DNA from: Candidatus Omnitrophota bacterium | GTDB lineage: Bacteria; Omnitrophota; Gorgyraeia; Zapsychrales; JANLHA01 | Direction: 5' to 3' | Assembly: GCA_020849375.1 (NCBI GenBank) | Contig: JADLGJ010000042.1 | Coordinates: 1-40,446 of the forward strand | Length of the DNA: 40,446 nucleotides | Shown here: positions 991-32,465 of the stretch, one piece after another | Layout: the number at the start of each line of letters is the position of its first letter | Numbering within the stretch: position 1 is the stretch's first letter | Notes under the pieces: model-generated | What the model saw: the letters and a program-made list of their open reading frames with translations, nothing else | What the model was told of the DNA's origin: nothing | Database searches by the model: none | Position numbers and translations under genes: made by a program

Positions 991-3900
991 ATGTCACCTA
1001 AAACCGTTTCTCCCTCATCACAATACTGCTTTGACAAAGACGGCAATTTTATTATCGCCAACTACAATCACGCCAAAACTTTCAGTAATTTTTTCCCGGG
1101 GGTTGCCGGCGTGTGGGGCGTCCCGATGTGGGTTTTTTACGTGAACCGGGGGCAGGCGATCAGCAGTTTTGGGACCGAAAGTAAAGACAAAGCGATCCTG
1201 GAATTTCTTCCGGCTAATAAAGCTTATCGTTTAACATCGCTTCAGGGATTCCGCACGTTTATTAAGGTGAAGTCAGGCGGGAAGTCCGTTATTTGGGAAC
1301 CCTTTCATGGCCAAAGCGGGCATGACTCAATGACCATCAATTCGCATGAATTGACCATTGAAGATGAGAGTAAGGAGTTGGGCCTCAAGATCAGTGTTAA
1401 TTATTTCACTTTGCCGGGAGAATCTTATGCGGCCTTGATCCGCCGCGTGACTTTGACCAATACGTCAAAGAAGGCTCGTGATATTGAGATGATCGATGGA
1501 TTACCGATCATCCTTCCGTACGGAATGAAGGATTGGACGGTTAAAAACATGTCGCGAACTGTGGAGGCCTGGGTCAAGGTCCGTAATGTCAAGACCAAGG
1601 CGCCGTTCTACCAGCTTAATGTGGAAGTCGCTGACACTCCGGATGTGAAATATATTAAAGAAGGGAATTTTTACTTTTCTTTCATTAACGGCAAACTTGT
1701 GGACCCGATCGTGGAAGCTGCGGTAGTTTTTGGTGATGGTACGGATTTTATAAAACCGCAAAGATTTCAGGATTTGGCTAAGTTTTCTATTCCTGCCCGT
1801 CAGGAGACTGCCAGCCGCACGCCGAGCGCAATGAGTTTCGCGAAGATCAAGCTCGCGGCGAAAGCCAGCCAGGAGATCATCTCTCTCGTCGGACAAACTT
1901 ATGCTGTCGAACATTTGAACGCCATTGTCAAGCAGGTCACGGTAAAAGGGTTTATTGATCAGAAACGGATCGAGAACCGTAAGCTCGTTGCCGGCATCAA
2001 GGACTACGCATTCACCAGCAGTTCCTCGACCGCGTTTGACCAGTATTGCGGACAGACATTCCTGGATAATATTTTGCGCGGGGGTTTGCCGGTTACGGTC
2101 AAGACCAGTGACGGTAATATTGCGTTCAATGTGTTCAGCCGAAAGCACGGCGACCCGGAACGTGATTATAATTATTTTGTTCTTTCTCCGACGTATTTCT
2201 CTCAGGGGAACGGGAATTACCGCGACGTCAACCAGAACCGCCGTAATGATGTCTGGTTCAATACGGACGTTAAAGATGCTTCCGTCATTGATTTTTGGAA
2301 TCTTTCTCAGGCGGACGGGTTCAATCCTTTGATCGTCAAAGGGATGACCTTTTCGCTGGCTGACCCGGAACATTTGGAAACGATTTTACAGGATTCCGTT
2401 AAAGGCTCGTGTGAGCCGTTGCGCGAACTATTGCAGAAAAGCTTCGGCCCCGGGGATGTCCTGAAATGCGTTCTTGAAAATAATTTGACACTGCGTGTTA
2501 CTCAGGAAGAATTTCTGGAAAAACTTTTGTCTCATTGTCAGCGCCAGATCACGGCTGACCACGGGGAAGGGTTCTGGTCCGACCATTGGACCTATAATCT
2601 CGATCTTGTGGAAAGTTATCTCGGCGTTTATCCCGATCACAGCCGCACACTTTTGCTCGAGAAGAAAGTTTTCAGTTTTTACCATAATTCGCATTACTTG
2701 GCGCCGCGTACGGACCGTTATGTCCTGACGCCCAAAGGGGTGCGGCAATATCATGCGGTTGTCGACGGGACGAAAGAGATCCGCAGCCAGGAAAAAGGCA
2801 GTAAATTACGCGTCGGCAATGGTGAGGGAGAAGTTTATCATACGAATTTGCTGGTAAAAATGCTGTGTTTGCTGACGAATAAGGCCGCGAGCTTTGACCC
2901 CAGCGGTGTCGGCTTGGAAATGGAAGGCGATAAGCCGAACTGGTATGATTCGTTGAACGGTTTACCGGGGCTTTTAGGGTCGTCATTATCCGAAACATTG
3001 GAACTTAAGCGGCTTTGCCAATTCGTGCTTGAACGCCTCGACGGCTTGCGCATTGAAAATGAGAAGCTTCCCGTCTTTGTTGAGCTTGCTGATTTTATTA
3101 AAGAATTATCGGCCGTTTTTGACTCAGAGAAGGATTCTCAGGCGATGTGGCATAAAACCAATGACGCCAAGGAACATTACCGACAACACATCCGCCGCGG
3201 GATCAATGGAAAAGAAGTTGATCTGTCTGTTAAGGAAATCCATGATTTTCTCAAGAAGATCGTTGAGCGCTGCCGGCAAGCCTCCGAAAAAGCCGCAACT
3301 CCGCAGGGCGCGCTGTCCACATATTTTTATCATGACGTCATCGACTATGCGCCGCTCGATAAAGTTTATCAGGACCAGCCTTATGTTCTTCCGGTTGCGT
3401 TCAAGCGGCATAACCTTCCGTTATTTTTGGAAGGATTTGTGCACGCCTTGAAAGTCAATCATGATCACAAGCATGCTTTGCAGATCTTTGAAAGTGTCCG
3501 CAAGAGCGGGTTGTTCGACCGTAAGTTGAAGATGTATAAAGTCAATGAGAATATCACCAGCGAGACCGAGGAGATCGGGCGTACCCGTATTTTTCCTCGC
3601 GGCTGGCTGGAAAATGAGTCAGTATGGCTCCATATGCAGTACAAATATCTCTTGGAGGTTTTACGCAGCGGGCTTTATTCTCAATATTATGAAGCGATGA
3701 AAGATGTGTTGGTCCCGTTCTTGAAGCCGGAGGTTTACGGGCGCAGTACGTTGGAAAATTCGTCTTTCATTGCCAGTAGTGCGCATGAAGATAAAAGTTT
3801 TCACGGCCAAGGCTTTGTTGCTCGCTTGTCCGGAAGTACGGCGGAGTTTCTGCATATGTGGCTGGTGATGAATGCCGGGGTCAAGCCGTTCCATTGGGAC

Positions 3901-4245
3901 AATAAAAAAGGCCTGACATTGACGTTCAAACCTGCCTTAGCCGGATGGTTATTCAGTAAAGAAGAACGTGATATCATTCTGACGAATCGTGAACAAGAGC
4001 AAAAAGCGATCCGTTTGCCGAAGAACAGCTATGCCTTTAATTTCTTAAGCACGACCTTGGTGGTTTATCACAACCCAAGCCGCCGCGACACGTTTGGCGA
4101 AAAAGCAGTTATGGTCAGCGGGGTCACGATCAAATACTACGGTTTGCAAAAACCGGTCCAGTTAACGGACGCGGTGATCCCGTCGCAATATGCGTTGGAT
4201 ATTCGTGAGAATAAAGTCGAGCGGATCGATATCAAGCTTTCATAG
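991..4245 (+). CDS. GH94-like (cellobiose phosphorylase family) protein, long form
   Basis: A 1,084-residue cytosolic-looking protein with no signal peptide. The N-terminal region (GNFIIANYNHAKTFSNFFPG, then GVPMWVFYVNRGQ and FLPANKAYR) matches the beta-sandwich of GH94/former GT36 proteins commonly annotated as cellobiose phosphorylase. A helical-barrel region follows, with KPNWYDSLNGLPGLLGSS near residues 648-665. That segment lines up with the GH94 catalytic-acid region (the DWND type), making D653 the likely acid. Family enzymes phosphorolyse beta-glucosidic bonds to give sugar-1-phosphate. The protein is longer than the roughly 800 residues of classical cellobiose phosphorylases, so the substrate may differ. 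The ATG is preceded by AAAGGA at a good distance. It sits between a polysaccharide deacetylase and a sensor kinase; foldback element 1 follows 11 nt after the stop. Confidence 0.82.
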   Translation: MSPKTVSPSSQYCFDKDGNFIIANYNHAKTFSNFFPGVAGVWGVPMWVFYVNRGQAISSFGTESKDKAILEFLPANKAYRLTSLQGFRTFIKVKSGGKSVIWEPFHGQSGHDSMTINSHELTIEDESKELGLKISVNYFTLPGESYAALIRRVTLTNTSKKARDIEMIDGLPIILPYGMKDWTVKNMSRTVEAWVKVRNVKTKAPFYQLNVEVADTPDVKYIKEGNFYFSFINGKLVDPIVEAAVVFGDGTDFIKPQRFQDLAKFSIPARQETASRTPSAMSFAKIKLAAKASQEIISLVGQTYAVEHLNAIVKQVTVKGFIDQKRIENRKLVAGIKDYAFTSSSSTAFDQYCGQTFLDNILRGGLPVTVKTSDGNIAFNVFSRKHGDPERDYNYFVLSPTYFSQGNGNYRDVNQNRRNDVWFNTDVKDASVIDFWNLSQADGFNPLIVKGMTFSLADPEHLETILQDSVKGSCEPLRELLQKSFGPGDVLKCVLENNLTLRVTQEEFLEKLLSHCQRQITADHGEGFWSDHWTYNLDLVESYLGVYPDHSRTLLLEKKVFSFYHNSHYLAPRTDRYVLTPKGVRQYHAVVDGTKEIRSQEKGSKLRVGNGEGEVYHTNLLVKMLCLLTNKAASFDPSGVGLEMEGDKPNWYDSLNGLPGLLGSSLSETLELKRLCQFVLERLDGLRIENEKLPVFVELADFIKELSAVFDSEKDSQAMWHKTNDAKEHYRQHIRRGINGKEVDLSVKEIHDFLKKIVERCRQASEKAATPQGALSTYFYHDVIDYAPLDKVYQDQPYVLPVAFKRHNLPLFLEGFVHALKVNHDHKHALQIFESVRKSGLFDRKLKMYKVNENITSETEEIGRTRIFPRGWLENESVWLHMQYKYLLEVLRSGLYSQYYEAMKDVLVPFLKPEVYGRSTLENSSFIASSAHEDKSFHGQGFVARLSGSTAEFLHMWLVMNAGVKPFHWDNKKGLTLTFKPALAGWLFSKEERDIILTNREQEQKAIRLPKNSYAFNFLSTTLVVYHNPSRRDTFGEKAVMVSGVTIKYYGLQKPVQLTDAVIPSQYALDIRENKVERIDIKLS

Positions 4246-4256
4246 ATGTAAAAGCC

Positions 4257-4356
4257 GGGGCCCTGAATGGTCCCGTGCGAGTTTGATTTTGACATACCTT
4301 AATCTTTTTCTGAAAAGTCAAAATCACTGTTTGAGCAAGGGGCCATTCAGGGTCCT
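4257..4356 (-). repeat. Foldback element 1 (conserved internal loop, inverted orientation)
   Basis: A 100-nt intercistronic stem-loop. The outer arms are 4257-4274 and 4339-4356: 18 pairs, of which three are G-T/G-U wobbles when read on the + strand. The inner stem is GATTTTGAC (4285-4293) with GTCAAAATC (4317-4325), enclosing a 23-nt loop. Read on the - strand, the unpaired strands are TTGCTCAAACAGT (4326-4338) and AAACTCGCAC (4275-4284). These match the unpaired strands of the elements at 7139 and 31371, although neither arm sequence is shared. The element starts 11 nt after the GH94 stop and ends 11 nt before the histidine kinase ATG, so it fills the gap between the two genes. Confidence 0.85.
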
Positions 4357-4367
4357 GGCTAAATTTT

Positions 4368-6029
4368 ATGAAGATCGCCAATAAAATATTCGTTCTCGTC
4401 CTGTTCCTCATTGCCGCCTTAGGTGTTAATACATATATTTCTCTCTGTCAGGTTTCCAGCCTCGGCGAAAAACTTCGTGAAATTACTGATAAGAATATCG
4501 TGCTCAGTGATGTCGGTAATACCGTCACTCAGCGTTATTTAGAAAATGCGATCCGCTTTCAGGCTATGCTCAACGCCGGTGATGAACTGGCGTTCGCAGA
4601 AATGCCTGCGTCCCGCCGGCAATATCTCATTAGCCACATCAACAATATCAAGCAGGGCTTTGACCGCTTAACGCAGGAAACTGGTGAAGCGGTGATCAAG
4701 GGGAAAGAACTGATTGCGCATAAACTGCAGGGAGCAAGTCATCCGGCGCAGGCCGAGGAACTAAAACAGGCGGGCCAGCTTTTAGAAAAGATCGAGACGG
4801 CGTATGTTGAGTATGACAAGCTTTTCAACGACATTTTCAAAATGATCGGCGCCGGCAATTACGAACTATCTCTTGAAGACTTGGGCCGCATCAACCAAAA
4901 GGAAAAGCTCCTTGCGCAAAAGATCAAGTCTTTGCTTGAGGAGATCCGCCAATCAACGCAAAAAACTTTAAATAATGCCGCCCGGCAAGAGCAGAAGGCC
5001 CGCGAAACACTCGTTCTGGCGTTGCAATGTATTATTTTTGTCAGCATGTTGACATCATTTTTTATCATCCGTAGTTTTTCCAGTCCGTTAAAGAAATTAG
5101 TCTACGCTGCCCATGAGATCGGGGTCGGGAATTTTAAAGTGGAGCTGGATACCGACCGCCGTGACGAGATCGGCGAAGTCAGTACGGCCTTTAATAAGAT
5201 GACCGGCCAGCTCGATGAGTTTAAGACCAAGCTGGAAGAACAGAACCAGGTTCTGGGAAAGAATTTGCAGATAACGAAGGAGCAGAAGCAGGATATCGAA
5301 AAAGTGAACACGGAATTGGACCGCTTTGTTTATACGGTTAGCCATGATATTGCCGCGCCGCTGACCGGTATCGAGGGTTACGGTGATTTTCTAGAAAAAC
5401 ATTATTTTGACAAGTTAGATGAGAAGGGCCAGCGCAGTTTAACGGGCTTGCGCCGTGCAACCAAGCGGATGACCATGATGATCAAAGACCTTTTGGCTTT
5501 GACTCGCATCACTCGGATCAAAAATCCGTATGAGAAAGTTGATATCCGTTTGCTCCTCGATGTGGTTTTGGAGCGTTTGGAATATGTGATCCGGGAAGCT
5601 GATGCCAAGATCGTTCTGATGTCGCCGTTACCGAATGTCGTGTGCGACCGCGTCAAGATTACCGAGGTCTTTGACAATTTGATCAATAATGCGGTGAAGT
5701 TTTCCGCCTCTTATCAGAAGGGCAAGTGGGCGACGCCGACCGTTGAGATCGGATATGCCGAGAGGGAAGATTGTTTCCAATTCTATGTCCGGGACAACGG
5801 GATCGGTATCCCACCGGAAAATAGGGAAGATATATTCAATCTTTTTAAGCGTTTAGATAATGCGATCGACTATGAGGGCACCGGGGCTGGTCTCAGCATC
5901 GTCAAGGCGGGGGTCGAGGATCATGGCGGAAAGGTTTGGGTCGAGGCAAATCAGCATGAGGGTTCGACCTTTTATTTTACGATCCCAAAAGGGCTGAAAG
6001 CCACTCTCTCTAAATTGGTCGCCTCTTGA
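4368..6029 (+). CDS. Membrane sensor histidine kinase (HAMP-HisKA-HATPase)
   Basis: A 553-residue two-component sensor kinase. There is a first membrane segment at about residues 5-27 and a helical periplasmic sensor to about residue 210. A second membrane segment (about 213-236) leads into a HAMP domain (SPLKKLVYAAHEIGVGNFKVELD) and a coiled coil. The HisKA H-box is VSHDIAAPL with H326 as the phosphoacceptor. The ATPase domain shows the N-box FDNLINNAVKF, G1 DNGIGIP and G2 EGTGAGLSIVK. The sensor helices resemble four-helix-bundle ligand domains, but the signal is unknown, and no response regulator is encoded beside it, so it is an orphan here. There is no good SD: the nearest AGGG (4349-4352) lies inside the right arm of the foldback element that ends 11 nt upstream, so folding could affect translation. 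Confidence 0.93.
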   Translation: MKIANKIFVLVLFLIAALGVNTYISLCQVSSLGEKLREITDKNIVLSDVGNTVTQRYLENAIRFQAMLNAGDELAFAEMPASRRQYLISHINNIKQGFDRLTQETGEAVIKGKELIAHKLQGASHPAQAEELKQAGQLLEKIETAYVEYDKLFNDIFKMIGAGNYELSLEDLGRINQKEKLLAQKIKSLLEEIRQSTQKTLNNAARQEQKARETLVLALQCIIFVSMLTSFFIIRSFSSPLKKLVYAAHEIGVGNFKVELDTDRRDEIGEVSTAFNKMTGQLDEFKTKLEEQNQVLGKNLQITKEQKQDIEKVNTELDRFVYTVSHDIAAPLTGIEGYGDFLEKHYFDKLDEKGQRSLTGLRRATKRMTMMIKDLLALTRITRIKNPYEKVDIRLLLDVVLERLEYVIREADAKIVLMSPLPNVVCDRVKITEVFDNLINNAVKFSASYQKGKWATPTVEIGYAEREDCFQFYVRDNGIGIPPENREDIFNLFKRLDNAIDYEGTGAGLSIVKAGVEDHGGKVWVEANQHEGSTFYFTIPKGLKATLSKLVAS

Positions 6030-6053: not shown

Positions 6054-6129
6054 ATTTCTTATCCTACCTGCAGTTCATTTAATCTTGTTAGCTAAAATAT
6101 AATTCATATTTTTTATGGAGGAAATATCT

Positions 6130-7125
6130 ATGGGCGAGATCAGTATCAGTGCGATCAACGAAAAAGTTAAGAAAGAAAGCGGTTTTGTTGAAGCGATCGT
6201 CATGGAAGTTGATAAGGTCCTCATTGGCCAGCGGTATCTCTTGGACCGTTTGCTCGTCGGGCTTTTGGCGAACGGCCATATCCTTGTCGAAGGCGTTCCC
6301 GGGCTTGCCAAGACGACCGCGGTTAAAACTCTTGCTGCGACAATTCAGGCGAAGTTCCAGCGCCTGCAATTCACGCCTGATATGCTCCCGGCTGACTTGA
6401 CCGGGACACTGATCTACGACCAGCACACTGGGAAATTCAATATCAAGAAGGGCCCTTTGTTCGCAAATTTTATTCTTGCTGATGAAATTAACCGCGCGCC
6501 CGCGAAAGTACAAAGCGCGCTTTTGGAAGCGATGCAGGAACGCCAGATCACGATCGGTGCAGAAACGTTGAAACTTGAAGACCCGTTCTTGGTCCTGGCT
6601 ACACAGAACCCGATTGAACAAGAGGGGACGTATCCTTTGCCGGAAGCGCAGGTTGACCGTTTTATGCTTAAGGTCAAGATCACATATCCGACCAAGGACG
6701 AGGAACTTAAGATCCTGCAGCGGATGTCGTATACGAAAGCGGATTTCAAAGTTCAGAGTATCGTGACGACTCAAGATATTCTGCGTGCCCGTGCGGTCGT
6801 TGATGAAATCTATATGGACGAGAAGATCGCCCGGTATATCGTTGATATCGTCGAGGCGACCCGCCATCCAGAAAATTATAAGCTTGGAGATCTTAAAGGC
6901 CTGATCCAATACGGGGCTTCGCCGCGCGCGACGATCTATTTGGCGCTGGCTTCAAAAGCTTATGCGTTTTTGCAGGGCCGCGGTTATGTGACGCCGCAGG
7001 ATGTGAAGACGATCGGAGTTGATGTTTTACGCCACCGTGTCATTGTCAGTTATGAAGCGGAGGCGGAAGAGAAAACATCGGAAGATATCATTGCGAGAAT
7101 CTTTAGCGAAGTCGAAGTTCCTTAA
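6130..7125 (+). CDS. MoxR-family AAA+ ATPase
   Basis: A 331-residue cytosolic AAA+ ATPase. Visible motifs are Walker A GVPGLAKTT, a Walker B with ADEINRA, and the MoxR signature ATQNPIEQEGTYPLPEAQ followed by VDRF. MoxR proteins act as chaperone-like ATPases paired with von Willebrand factor A (VWA) proteins, and here DUF58, BatA and BatB follow directly. I chose ATG 6130 because a strong GGAGG (6117-6121) lies 8 nt upstream; the in-frame ATG at 6115 overlaps that SD and would leave the gene without one. A foldback element separates this gene from DUF58, so the ATPase could be made at a different level from the rest of the cluster. Confidence 0.94.
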   Translation: MGEISISAINEKVKKESGFVEAIVMEVDKVLIGQRYLLDRLLVGLLANGHILVEGVPGLAKTTAVKTLAATIQAKFQRLQFTPDMLPADLTGTLIYDQHTGKFNIKKGPLFANFILADEINRAPAKVQSALLEAMQERQITIGAETLKLEDPFLVLATQNPIEQEGTYPLPEAQVDRFMLKVKITYPTKDEELKILQRMSYTKADFKVQSIVTTQDILRARAVVDEIYMDEKIARYIVDIVEATRHPENYKLGDLKGLIQYGASPRATIYLALASKAYAFLQGRGYVTPQDVKTIGVDVLRHRVIVSYEAEAEEKTSEDIIARIFSEVEVP

Positions 7126-7138
7126 TAATTTTATTTGA

Positions 7139-7264
7139 GCGGCGTTGTGGGGGTGACCTTCCGTGCTCGAACAGTGAATTTTGCTTTTATCAAAATTTTC
7201 TTCAAATAGAGATCGGGAAAAAGCAAAATTCAAACTCGCCGGAAGGTCACCCCCACAACGCCGC
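7139..7264 (+). repeat. Foldback element 2 (perfect 25-bp arms, conserved internal loop)
   Basis: A 126-nt intercistronic stem-loop. The outer arms 7139-7163 and 7240-7264 are perfectly complementary over 25 bp. The inner stem, GAATTTTGCTTTT (7176-7188) with AAAAGCAAAATTC (7219-7231), is perfect over 13 bp with a 30-nt loop. The unpaired strands between the stems are TGCTCGAACAGT (7164-7175) and AAACTCGC (7232-7239), conserved with the other two elements while the stems are not. It starts 13 nt after the moxR stop and ends 14 nt before the DUF58 ATG. No T-tract follows the right arm, so it is not a standard intrinsic terminator. Confidence 0.92.
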
Positions 7265-7278
7265 CCGAGAAACGATTT

Positions 7279-8169
7279 ATGATCCCTAAAGATGTATTCA
7301 AAAAAGTCCGCCGTATTGAGATCACGACGTCGCGGCTTGTGACCGATGTCTTTGCCGGCCAGTACCACAGTGTTTTTAAAGGCCGCGGCCTTGAGTTCGA
7401 TGAAGTGCGCGAATATTTTCCCGGCGATGATGTCCGTACCATTGACTGGAACGTCACCGCACGCACCGGGAAAGCACATATTAAAAAATTCGTCGAAGAA
7501 CGCGAGTTGACCGTCATGCTTCTCGTTGACGTGTCCCGCTCCTGCCAATTCTCCACCGTTAATGAACTAAAAAGTAAACTCGCCGCTGAGATCGCCGCAC
7601 TGTTGGCTTTTTCCGCCATCCGTAATAATGACAAGATCGGCCTGATCATTTTCACCGATAAGATCGAGAAATTTGTTCCCCCGGTCAAAGGGACAAAGAA
7701 TGTCCTTCGGCTGATCCGCGAGATCCTTTTTTATCAGCCGCAGCATTCTGCGACCGACATGGTTGCCGCACTGGAATACCTCAATAAGATCGTCAGCCGT
7801 AAAAGCGTTGCTTTCTTAATCTCGGACTTTTTTGAGCCGGGGGAGACCGGACGCTTGAAGAAAGCCTTGGCGATCGCCAACCGCCGTCATGACGTCATCG
7901 CGGTCACGCTTAACGACCTGCGCGAAAGCGAGTTGCCGGATTGCGGGCTTGTCCTTTTGGAAGATGCGGAAACCGGCCGTACGACCTTGGTTGATACCAG
8001 TTCGGCCAAGGTAAGGGAAGATTACCAACAGAGAGCTGCGGTTCGTGTTAAGAATCGCCAACGGATGTTCGATTCCGTCGGCATGGACCATATTCCTATC
8101 GCGACCCATGAGTCGTACAGCGATGAGATTGTGAAATTCTTTCTGAAACGCCGTAGGAGAAAGATCTGA
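7279..8169 (+). CDS. DUF58 domain protein
   Basis: A 296-residue soluble protein. It carries the DUF58 signature GRGLEFDEVREYFPGDDVRTIDWNV near residues 35-60, followed by a VWA-like fold containing LLVDVSRSC. DUF58 proteins lie next to MoxR in most genomes and are thought to be its direct partner or client adaptor. The DxSxS metal site of VWA domains is present (DVSRS), so ion binding is plausible. The ATG has only a weak GAGAAA as SD (7267-7272), lying between the foldback arm and the start. The protein is followed 1 nt later by the DUF4381-like gene, in the order typical of Bat clusters. Confidence 0.93.
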   Translation: MIPKDVFKKVRRIEITTSRLVTDVFAGQYHSVFKGRGLEFDEVREYFPGDDVRTIDWNVTARTGKAHIKKFVEERELTVMLLVDVSRSCQFSTVNELKSKLAAEIAALLAFSAIRNNDKIGLIIFTDKIEKFVPPVKGTKNVLRLIREILFYQPQHSATDMVAALEYLNKIVSRKSVAFLISDFFEPGETGRLKKALAIANRRHDVIAVTLNDLRESELPDCGLVLLEDAETGRTTLVDTSSAKVREDYQQRAAVRVKNRQRMFDSVGMDHIPIATHESYSDEIVKFFLKRRRRKI

Positions 8170-30036: not shown

Positions 30037-31356
30037 ATGGAACAGACCCAAGCTGTTAAGGCGAATAGAACCACTAATTACATAAAAAAGGAAACTCGCA
30101 TGAAGTATGATGTTAAGGATATAAGTTTAGCCAAAAAAGGGAAGTTGCGTATTGAGTGGGCTTTTAAAGACATGCCGGTTTTGGCTTTGATCGAAAAACG
30201 TTTTGAAAAAGATAAGCCTTTGAAAGGTTTGCGCGTTGCGGCGTGTTTGCACGTCACGACGGAAACAGGGAACCTGGCCCGTGTTTTAAAGGCCGGCGGT
30301 GCGGATGTTTCGATTTGTGCTTCCAATCCTTTGTCAACGCAAGATGACGTTGCCGCTTCGCTCGTTAAGGATTATGGTATTCCGACCTTCGCGATCAAAG
30401 GGGAAGACACCAAAACGTATTACAGCCACTTGAATGCGGTTTTGGACAACAAGCCGAATCTCACCATGGATGATGGGGCTGACTTAGTATCTGAGATCCA
30501 TCAGAAACGCAAGGACCTGCAGAAGTACATTTATGCCGGTACAGAAGAAACCACTACGGGGGTTATCCGTTTAAAGAGCCTTGAGAAACATAATCTGTTG
30601 ATGTATCCGATCATCGCTGTCAACGACGCGTTGACCAAGCATTTTTTTGACAACCGTTACGGGACGGGCCAATCGACTCTAGACGGGATGATCCGTGCAA
30701 CGAATCGTTTAGTTGCCGGTTCGAACTTTGTCGTCTGCGGTTACGGCTGGTGCGGGCGCGGGGTTGCGATGCGTGCGGCCGGTTTAGGCGCTCGTGTCAT
30801 CGTCACTGAAATTGATCCGCTCAAAGCACTTGAAGCGGTCATGGACGGTTATGATGTTATGCCGATCAAAGATGCAGCTTCTAAAGGTGATTTCTTCGTG
30901 ACCGTCACTGGTGATATCAATGTCATCCGTGCTGAGCATATGGCGACGATGAAAGAAGGGGCCATTATGTGCAACTCCGGCCACTTTAATGCTGAACTCG
31001 ACATTGCCGGTTTGGAAAAGATCACCAAGTCCCGCCGTATTATCCGTGATTTCGTAGAAGAATTCACCATGAAGAACGGAAAGAATGTTTATCTCTTGGG
31101 TGACGGACGTTTGATCAATCTCGCATCAGCGGAAGGCCATCCGGCGTCCGTTATGGACATGAGTTTTGCCAATCAAGCGTTGGCTTCGGAATTTGTCGCT
31201 AAGAATTATAAAAAGTTACAAAATAAAGTTTACAGCGTTCCGGAAGACATCGATAAGATGATCGCCAAGCTTAAGCTCAAAGCGTTAGGTATTAAGATCG
31301 ACGTTTTGACCGAAGAGCAAGAGAAGTACCTTGCCAGCTGGCAAATGGGAACATAA
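30037..31356 (+). CDS. ahcY: Adenosylhomocysteinase
   Basis: A 439-residue NAD-dependent enzyme that hydrolyses S-adenosylhomocysteine to homocysteine and adenosine. Motifs: [57 protein letters not shown], the NAD fold [21 protein letters not shown] and ICN-type [11 protein letters not shown]. Two in-frame starts each have a good SD: 30037 (AAGGAG, 5 nt) and 30100 (AAGGA, 7 nt). The second, [15 protein letters not shown], is where the family normally begins, so the first 21 residues may be a leader-like extension or unused. It lies 9 nt after metK. Confidence 0.97.
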
Positions 31357-31370
31357 GAAAACTAGTACTT

Positions 31371-31487
31371 AATAAGAAACAATAACCACTATCCTTGCTC
31401 AAACAGTCCTCGCGCACTCAACCTCTTCGATGAAAGGTAGGTTGAGTGGCTGCGGAACTCGCCGGATAGTGGTTATTGTTTCTTATT
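31371..31487 (+). repeat. Foldback element 3 (perfect 24-bp arms, conserved internal loop)
   Basis: A 117-nt intercistronic stem-loop. The outer arms 31371-31394 and 31464-31487 are perfectly complementary over 24 bp. The inner stem is CACTCAACCT (31415-31424) with AGGTTGAGTG (31439-31448) and a 14-nt loop, with a few extra pairs below it. The unpaired strands TTGCTCAAACAGT (31395-31407) and AACTCGCC (31456-31463) match the other elements. It starts 14 nt after ahcY and ends 12 nt before pfkA; the pfkA SD lies just outside the right arm. Confidence 0.92.
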
Positions 31488-31499
31488 CTGGAGACTGAT

Positions 31500-32465
31500 A
31501 TGGCCATTAAGAAAATTGGGGTTTTGACGTCGGGAGGGGACGGCCCGGGAATGAACGCGGCAATACGCAGCGTGACGCGTTCAGCGCTTTCGTCCGGGCT
31601 CGAGGTCGCCGGAATTATCCGTGGCTATCAGGGTTTGATTGACGACAATATCATTTCTTTGGAACATCGCTCCGTTTCCAATATTATAAATCGCGGAGGA
31701 ACTATTTTGAAAACCGCGCGGTCCGAGAAATTTCGTTCTCCGCAAGGGAAGACGATCGCACTTGAAACTTTGCAAAAGCACAATATTGATGCCTTGATCG
31801 TGATCGGCGGGGACGGGACGTATCAGGGCGCTGTGGATATGATGGCGTTGAATCAATTTCCGATCGTCGGTGTTCCGGGGTCCATTGATAATGATATTTG
31901 CGGGACGGATGAAACCATCGGGTGTGAAACCGCGATCAACACGGCTTTGGAATCGATCGATAAGATTCGTGATACCGCGCAAAGCATGGAACGGATCTTT
32001 ATCATTGAGGTCATGGGTAATAAGAGTGGTTATATTGCTTTGCGTGTGGCAATGGCCGCCGGTGCTGAAACTGTCATCATTCCTGAGCGCAAGTTCGACT
32101 ATAAAACGTTGTGCAGTGAAATTCAAGACGGTAATAAGCGCGGCAAGTTGAACTGGATGATCGTTACCGCTGAGGGGGCTGCGAAAGCCGCTGAAGTCGC
32201 GCAAACATTGACGATGATGACAGGGCTTGAGACCCGTTATGTGGTTTTAGGCCATGTCCAGCGCGGTGGAACTCCCGTATCGGCAGACCGTATTTTGGCC
32301 ACGCGATTAGGCGCAGCGGCGGTTGACCTGGTTTTGAAGGGGCAGTTCGGTAAGGCTCTTGGTGTTATTCATGAGGAGATCAATATCGTTGACCTTTGTG
32401 ACGCGAAGACCCGGCCGGATACCCGTACCGACGAATATTTGAAGTTAATGAAGCTGCTTAGCTAA
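31500..32465 (+). CDS. pfkA: ATP-type 6-phosphofructokinase
   Basis: A 321-residue glycolytic enzyme, the length of bacterial PfkA. The N-terminal ATP motif GVLTSGGDGPGMNAAIR, GGDGTYQGA and GVPGSIDNDI are clear. Gly106 and Gly127 occupy the places of E. coli Gly104 and Gly124, where PPi-dependent enzymes have Asp and Lys, so ATP is the likely donor. D130 is the catalytic base. The ATG at 31500 has GGAG (31490-31493) 6 nt upstream; an in-frame TTG at 31476 lies inside the foldback arm and is rejected. Confidence 0.96.
   Translation: MAIKKIGVLTSGGDGPGMNAAIRSVTRSALSSGLEVAGIIRGYQGLIDDNIISLEHRSVSNIINRGGTILKTARSEKFRSPQGKTIALETLQKHNIDALIVIGGDGTYQGAVDMMALNQFPIVGVPGSIDNDICGTDETIGCETAINTALESIDKIRDTAQSMERIFIIEVMGNKSGYIALRVAMAAGAETVIIPERKFDYKTLCSEIQDGNKRGKLNWMIVTAEGAAKAAEVAQTLTMMTGLETRYVVLGHVQRGGTPVSADRILATRLGAAAVDLVLKGQFGKALGVIHEEINIVDLCDAKTRPDTRTDEYLKLMKLLS

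Follow-up and report, generated by a model that had tools for sequence, protein, structure and literature searches.

Interspersed palindromes of bacteria are normally recognized via a conserved stem or tag. ERIC/IRU, BOX, Correia, and similar MITE-like repeats measure ~100–150 bp, are palindromic, and occupy intercistronic or convergent gaps in either orientation; their stems or terminal repeats are conserved. REPs and REPINs are intergenic and dispersed, form hairpins with compensatory stem changes, and are probably moved as single-stranded DNA (PMC3733652, PMC3116915). REPs are tagged at the end by GTAG or CGTC and have mostly 6- to 9-bp stems with conserved ends (PMC3733652). The attC sites of integrons, 57–142 nt long, show little sequence conservation and a variable terminal structure, and one folded strand is read by structure (PMC2727003). 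Here, we describe a previously undescribed family of non-coding, intergenic foldback elements of ~100–145 bp, first recognized in a window of 40,446 nucleotides (the whole stretch of DNA analyzed) from a Candidatus Omnitrophota bacterium. Literature searches on the core sequences returned no relevant paper, and other literature provided comparators only.

Three copies are present in the window (table 1), where they are the top three inverted repeats by length for a spacing within 200 nt. The pattern of their loop strands, TGCTCRAACAGTN{35,65}AACTCGC, has three matches in the window and none in 100 dinucleotide shuffles, in support of the three copies with common loop strands reported in the initial annotation. 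Their folding z-scores range from −5.9 to −14.5. For element 1, the annotation had proposed a perfect 25-bp outer stem, a 13-bp inner stem, and the loop strands TGCTCGAACAGT and AAACTCGC. Its arms are indeed 25 nt long and 100% complementary and the loop strands are as given, but the inner stem (7175–7188/7219–7232) measures 14 bp. The arms of element 3 are 24 nt long and 100% complementary. Those of element 2, of 26 nt, are 85% complementary and make a near-continuous stem once G-T pairs are counted on the plus strand. This copy, first noted as 4257–4356, is real but inverted relative to the other two, a fact that had gone unmentioned and that bears on function. The distances to the neighboring genes had been given correctly: the elements begin 11, 13, and 14 nt after a stop codon and end 11, 14, and 12 nt before the next ATG.

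Table 1. Foldback elements of the window, their parts, and their neighboring genes. For elements and loop strands, the strand given is that of S (see text).
Feature	Position	Strand	Remarks
Foldback element 1	7139..7264	-	25-bp perfect outer stem, core loop GCGAGTTT/ACTGTTCGAGC, 14-bp inner stem
Element 1, left outer arm	7139..7163	.	Inverted-repeat analysis
Element 1, right outer arm	7240..7264	.	Inverted-repeat analysis
Element 1, conserved loop strand ACTGTTCGAGCA (S sense)	7164..7175	-	
Element 1, conserved loop strand GCGAGTTT (S sense)	7232..7239	-	
Element 1, inner hairpin	7175..7232	.	
Foldback element 2	4253..4360	+	Opposite to elements 1 and 3
Large ORF without Pfam match	991..4245		Neighbor of element 2
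Histidine kinase gene	4368..6029		Neighbor of element 2
Foldback element 3	31371..31487	-	
S-adenosylhomocysteine hydrolase gene	30037..31356		Neighbor of element 3
Phosphofructokinase gene	31500..32465		Neighbor of element 3
moxR-type AAA ATPase gene	6115..7125	+	Upstream of element 1
DUF58/VWA gene	7279..8169	+	Downstream of element 1; used in empty-site comparison

On the strand that we call S, which for element 1 is the complement of the strand first described, the order is outer arm, GC, GAGTTY, inner hairpin, ACTGTYTGA, GC, outer arm. All copies share the asymmetric internal loop GCGAGTTY/ACTGTYTGAGC, and the conservation claimed for its strands extends well beyond the window, most positions exceeding 95% identity over 85 parsed copies. 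Two GA steps are opposed in this core loop, beside GC pairs; they are compatible with tandem sheared G-A pairs, which the arrangement would allow. The inner hairpins belong to a few sequence families. GAA triloops, stable in DNA as well as RNA, cap several of the shortest. The outer stems, of ~20–26 bp, are copy-specific and 92% Watson-Crick in this genome. Left arms match right arms with a mean local score of 19.3 when both belong to one copy, compared with 5.8 when they come from different copies. In the stem alignment, 84% of the cells are paired versus 56% in shuffles, 228 cells show a compensatory double change versus 86 in shuffles, and the covariation is lost when the partner is slid by one column. 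The stems are kept by pairing rather than sequence, and selection on folding, initially proposed from three copies, is borne out by these counts. To our knowledge, the combination of a conserved internal loop with free stems is otherwise found mainly in integron attC sites and structured RNAs. The elements resemble ERIC/IRU, BOX, and Correia repeats in size, palindromy, placement, and orientation, but differ from them in their variable stems.

The strand that folds can be read from the exceptions to stem pairing, as double-stranded palindromy alone predicts equal numbers of G.T and A.C on either strand. On S, we counted 57 G.T versus 17 A.C (33:9 in this genome, 24:8 in the others; binomial p 3e-6, over cells that are not fully independent as copies come from related lineages). 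There are 43 G.A on S, part of which may adjoin the core, versus a single C.T (C.T and G.A, respectively, on the strand first described). Counted per copy, a sign test of the strand bias gives 35:9 (p 1e-4). The G.T bias points the same way in copies with a sense S, in those with an antisense S, and in those that lie between convergent genes; among codirectional cases, S is sense in 23 and antisense in 33. An excess of G.T on S that keeps its direction in all gene contexts indicates that the folding of S, and not of mRNA, is selected, at least in the lineage from which the copies arose. By the same asymmetry, the initial annotation had portrayed the complement of the strand that folds. This comparison of G-T with A-C by strand is a simple computation, applicable to other repeat families for finding the folded strand.

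The exact pattern occurs seven times in this genome (G000; 1.55 Mb, 123 contigs). A first covariance model, seeded with 8 copies, detected 30 copies in it, all with E ≤0.0035, and the weakest, on contig C78, still has the full fold; the suspected new family with further copies is thus real. A second model, of the kind that the initial annotation had proposed to run over Omnitrophota, was built from 44 copies and matched in 20 of 384 sampled genomes of the phylum, in several classes; copy numbers per genome in this wide search are lower bounds, since few candidates were scored per genome. The distribution across Omnitrophota is patchy, with 30 copies in G000, none in any of the six other genera of its family, and copies in distant families (G024, G028, G036, and G046). 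The named public contigs that bear true copies are all from Omnitrophota. Exact-pattern matches outside the phylum (genome_contigs, IMG/VR) have no fold and look like chance, as does a covariance-model match in G020. For the window and 19 further loci, only tRNA scored above the Rfam gathering threshold, low scores to microRNA precursors being those of generic long hairpins.

The elements are placed in either orientation, mostly directly 3' of stop codons. The majority of the copies in this genome are intercistronic or in gaps of convergent genes; none of the 29 classified there lies in a divergent gap and 3 copies elsewhere do, all genomes being metagenome bins with gene context taken from simple open reading frames. 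In one copy (G000:C12:3126-3184, L031), ~20 additional bases (CCCATTAGGTGCCCGTAGGG) at one of the loop strands may have been inserted into the element. Inverted pairs of elements 80–350 bp apart are frequent (G102: L141 1548/1759, L121 1501/1770, L139 1508/1917; G046: L071 386/547) and are reminiscent of REP doublets. We rejected element pairs as transposon ends around a gene: the intervals in G000 C20, G102, and G046 contain ordinary genes or none.

The junction between moxR and DUF58, occupied by element 1, was compared using DUF58 orthologs from six genera of the same family, of which G004 yields no comparison. From stop to start, the gap measures about 153 nt in the window, 126 in the element and 27 in the rest. 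Four other genera have the junction without the element, the two genes overlapping (G001) or lying 2 nt (G005), 12 nt (G002), or 21 nt (G003) apart, which answers the call of the initial annotation for a comparison of orthologous gaps. As this gap is 0–21 nt in relatives, the element has been added, together with its arms, to a short gap. Entry into a palindrome already present at this junction, such as a terminator, is rejected, since the relatives lack a gap of that kind. In G006 (L186 985–1501), the gap holds a different insert with partly complementary flanks and a small ORF, whose product presumably resembles, judging by eye only, four-helix-bundle proteins of the 23S rRNA intervening-sequence type. 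This junction has received two inserts that are unrelated to each other.

At two sites of G024, the orthologous genes in G028 and G371 are without the element. G024 carries eleven copies at different loci, the better-matching pairs being 85–97% identical; those of L078 and L129 match over 141 bp between unrelated flanks. The family has both occupied and empty orthologous sites and near-identical copies at unrelated loci, the marks of a dispersed mobile repeat. No target-site duplication is visible at the G024 copies, and no excised intermediate was seen. The same genome contains a second dispersed foldback family of ~115–135 bp (GTTTAGCGCC...GGAACGAGGGGCTYGCRAGCCCCGAGAGAAGCC...GGCGCTAAAC) with a similar architecture (L078 1335–1455, L126 1640–1771, L129 1650–1757, L074 92–223 and 1600–1731, L080 1696–1826), often ~100 bp or less from copies of the first.

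A search for Y1_Tnp and IntI revealed no transposase or recombinase linked to the elements. The single Y1_Tnp gene of G000 is more than 1.5 kb away from any element, and G036 has elements and no Y1_Tnp. The integron integrase model TIGR02249 was over its cut-off in none of 17 genomes, and the matches below it look like ordinary tyrosine recombinases. At G000:C93:3582-4536 (L015), a single copy among the 30 lies directly 3' of a XerC/D-like tyrosine recombinase gene, probably by chance. The elements are akin to attC sites in length, sparse sequence conservation, and variable terminal structure. Their anatomy suggests a similar logic, a structure read on one strand, and their strand-biased stem exceptions are consistent with an attC-like, strand-selective structural recognition. 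However, attC sites are conserved at their boundaries (AAC...GTT, R boxes), whereas the elements are conserved in the internal loop with free boundaries and are scattered singly in gaps of housekeeping genes, in both orientations. Their copy-specific ends without AAC/GTT boundary boxes (R''/R'), and the lack of an IntI over cut-off, led us to reject attC membership. Like REPs and REPINs, they are intergenic, dispersed, and hairpin-forming, with compensatory stem changes; unlike REPs, they have outer stems of 20–26 bp of free sequence, a conserved center, and no tag. With neither a constant tetranucleotide (GTAG/CGTC) at their feet nor a linked RAYT (Y1_Tnp), and with this different anatomy, they are not REP-type elements in the strict sense, one of the roles first listed. 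A GTAG-type palindrome (GTAGGGGCGGACTTTATGTCCGCCC...) near a RAYT-like gene in G028 (L091 2098–2167) is separate and apparently an ordinary REP.

The arms, unrelated between copies according to the initial annotation, are copy-specific but partly common in some genomes. Copies in G024, G360, and MBPbin6 have wholly or partly common arms, and the arms of G000 show a weak positional consensus, (T)YCCG beside the core and GGR ~18–20 nt out. In G102, two inverted copies separated by 334 bp do not differ in the inner hairpin, yet their arms of 23–26 bp are unrelated. For pairs of G000 copies with an inner identity of at least 0.85, the arm identity is 0.45, about background. The inner hairpin turns over more slowly than the outer arms. 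Unrelated arms around near-identical inner hairpins, as in G000 and G102, are not predicted by simple copying, so that very fast arm evolution or exchange is needed.

A search for the core in permuted order, prompted by its likeness to known sequences, identified ACTGTYTGAGCGNAGCGAGTT, in which the two loop strands are joined in that order via a GNA triloop, in three IMG/VR contigs. Minus its first base, it occurs seven times in an Ilyobacter plasmid (within a repeat), twice in an Aureibacter plasmid, and once in MT837089. Each of these permuted cores is at the tip of a long hairpin. The permuted core has 18 bases identical to the element core in permuted order and a similar fold, the two loop strands having the same polarity within long hairpins; it differs in that the GC-side stem is closed by the GNA triloop and the other stem opens outwards. 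Neither the permuted core nor a bridging form was found in the 384 Omnitrophota genomes. Since the search was prompted in this way and no bridging form was found, a possible common origin of the two cores is a lead only. The Ilyobacter repeat (NC_014633.1; L149, L152, L154, L156–L160) is intergenic, up to ~490 bp long, and listed at 11 places; the seven copies examined are 80–96% alike and comprise a multi-loop hairpin with the permuted core, then a GGTTACTTTTC..GAAAAGTAACG hairpin. In Aureibacter pAT2 (L164), a tandem duplication of ~8 kb, possibly a mobile element, carries genes for an HTH regulator and a CHC2 zinc-finger protein, a permuted-core hairpin, and two overlapping tyrosine recombinase genes. 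The proximity of the permuted core to tyrosine recombinases in Aureibacter is not general, as elsewhere it lies near glycosyl hydrolases, a transporter, or phage structural genes.

On balance, we favor the view that the family consists of small non-autonomous mobile elements of ~100–145 bp that work through a single strand, S, in folded form; a single-strand-DNA mobile element was among the roles initially listed, and it is the one that gains support. S forms the outer stem, the conserved asymmetric internal loop (5'-GC GAGTTY / ACTGTYTGA GC-3'), and the inner hairpin, and the core loop, with its two GA steps beside GC pairs, may be the recognition site of an enzyme supplied in trans. The intermediate would be ssDNA more likely than RNA. 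The outer arms would need only to pair and might diverge or be replaced during spread, and the position 3' of stop codons would be where insertion is tolerated. The same element could instead move through RNA, S being transcribed and copied back by a reverse transcriptase. Tolerance of G-U on S fits RNA at least as well as DNA, and covariation is strong, but an unsystematic look revealed no promoter, tail, target duplication, or linked reverse transcriptase, and the GAA triloops of the short copies are stable in DNA too, so that we judge this route unlikely. We are just as skeptical of a fixed host element whose folded strand or cruciform serves the cell, through nucleoid or gyrase binding, an effect on replication forks or transcription, or a bidirectional role at gene ends. 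Placement right after stop codons, very few copies in divergent gaps, and near-perfect stems in copies with diverged inner loops all speak for such a function; orthologous junctions and six other genera of the family without elements, a patchy distribution, and random orientation speak against it.

The unrelated arms raise the question of whether the mobile unit is only the core plus inner hairpin, a new inverted arm pair being captured at each insertion. Both the G102 pair and the G000 pairs with similar inner parts would be explained. However, copies in G024, G360, and MBPbin6 share arms along with the inner part, the arms have a weak positional consensus, and a pre-existing palindrome is excluded at moxR-DUF58; we give arm capture a slim chance. 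An mRNA cis-element in operons, such as an RNase III site, stabilizer, or attenuator, agrees with the intercistronic location, and RNase III would accept a 25-bp duplex as substrate. The near-equal use of S as sense and antisense, the latter at least as frequent, disfavors it, as do a G-T bias that tracks S and not mRNA and the empty orthologous junctions; an RNA structure or processing site, also among the roles first listed, is thus very improbable as the selected function. Perfect inverted repeats can also arise as assembly foldbacks, yet the same core and architecture recur in many independent metagenome-assembled genomes, flanking genes are intact, long unrelated sequence separates the arms, and shuffles gave no match, which leaves artefact or chance a negligible probability.

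Beyond the favored reading of a mobile element working as folded S, a broader one is possible, if doubtful: the elements may belong to a new class of strand-specific mobile sites read by structure, in which an enzyme would bind GCGAGTTY/ACTGTYTGAGC in folded ssDNA, the module would work in either permutation and span Omnitrophota, Fusobacteriota, Bacteroidota, and phages, and the arms would be replaced on moving. If an enzyme does read the loop in one strand, this would be a second, independent structure-reading mobilization system, and the core loop would then offer a precise handle for finding such an enzyme.
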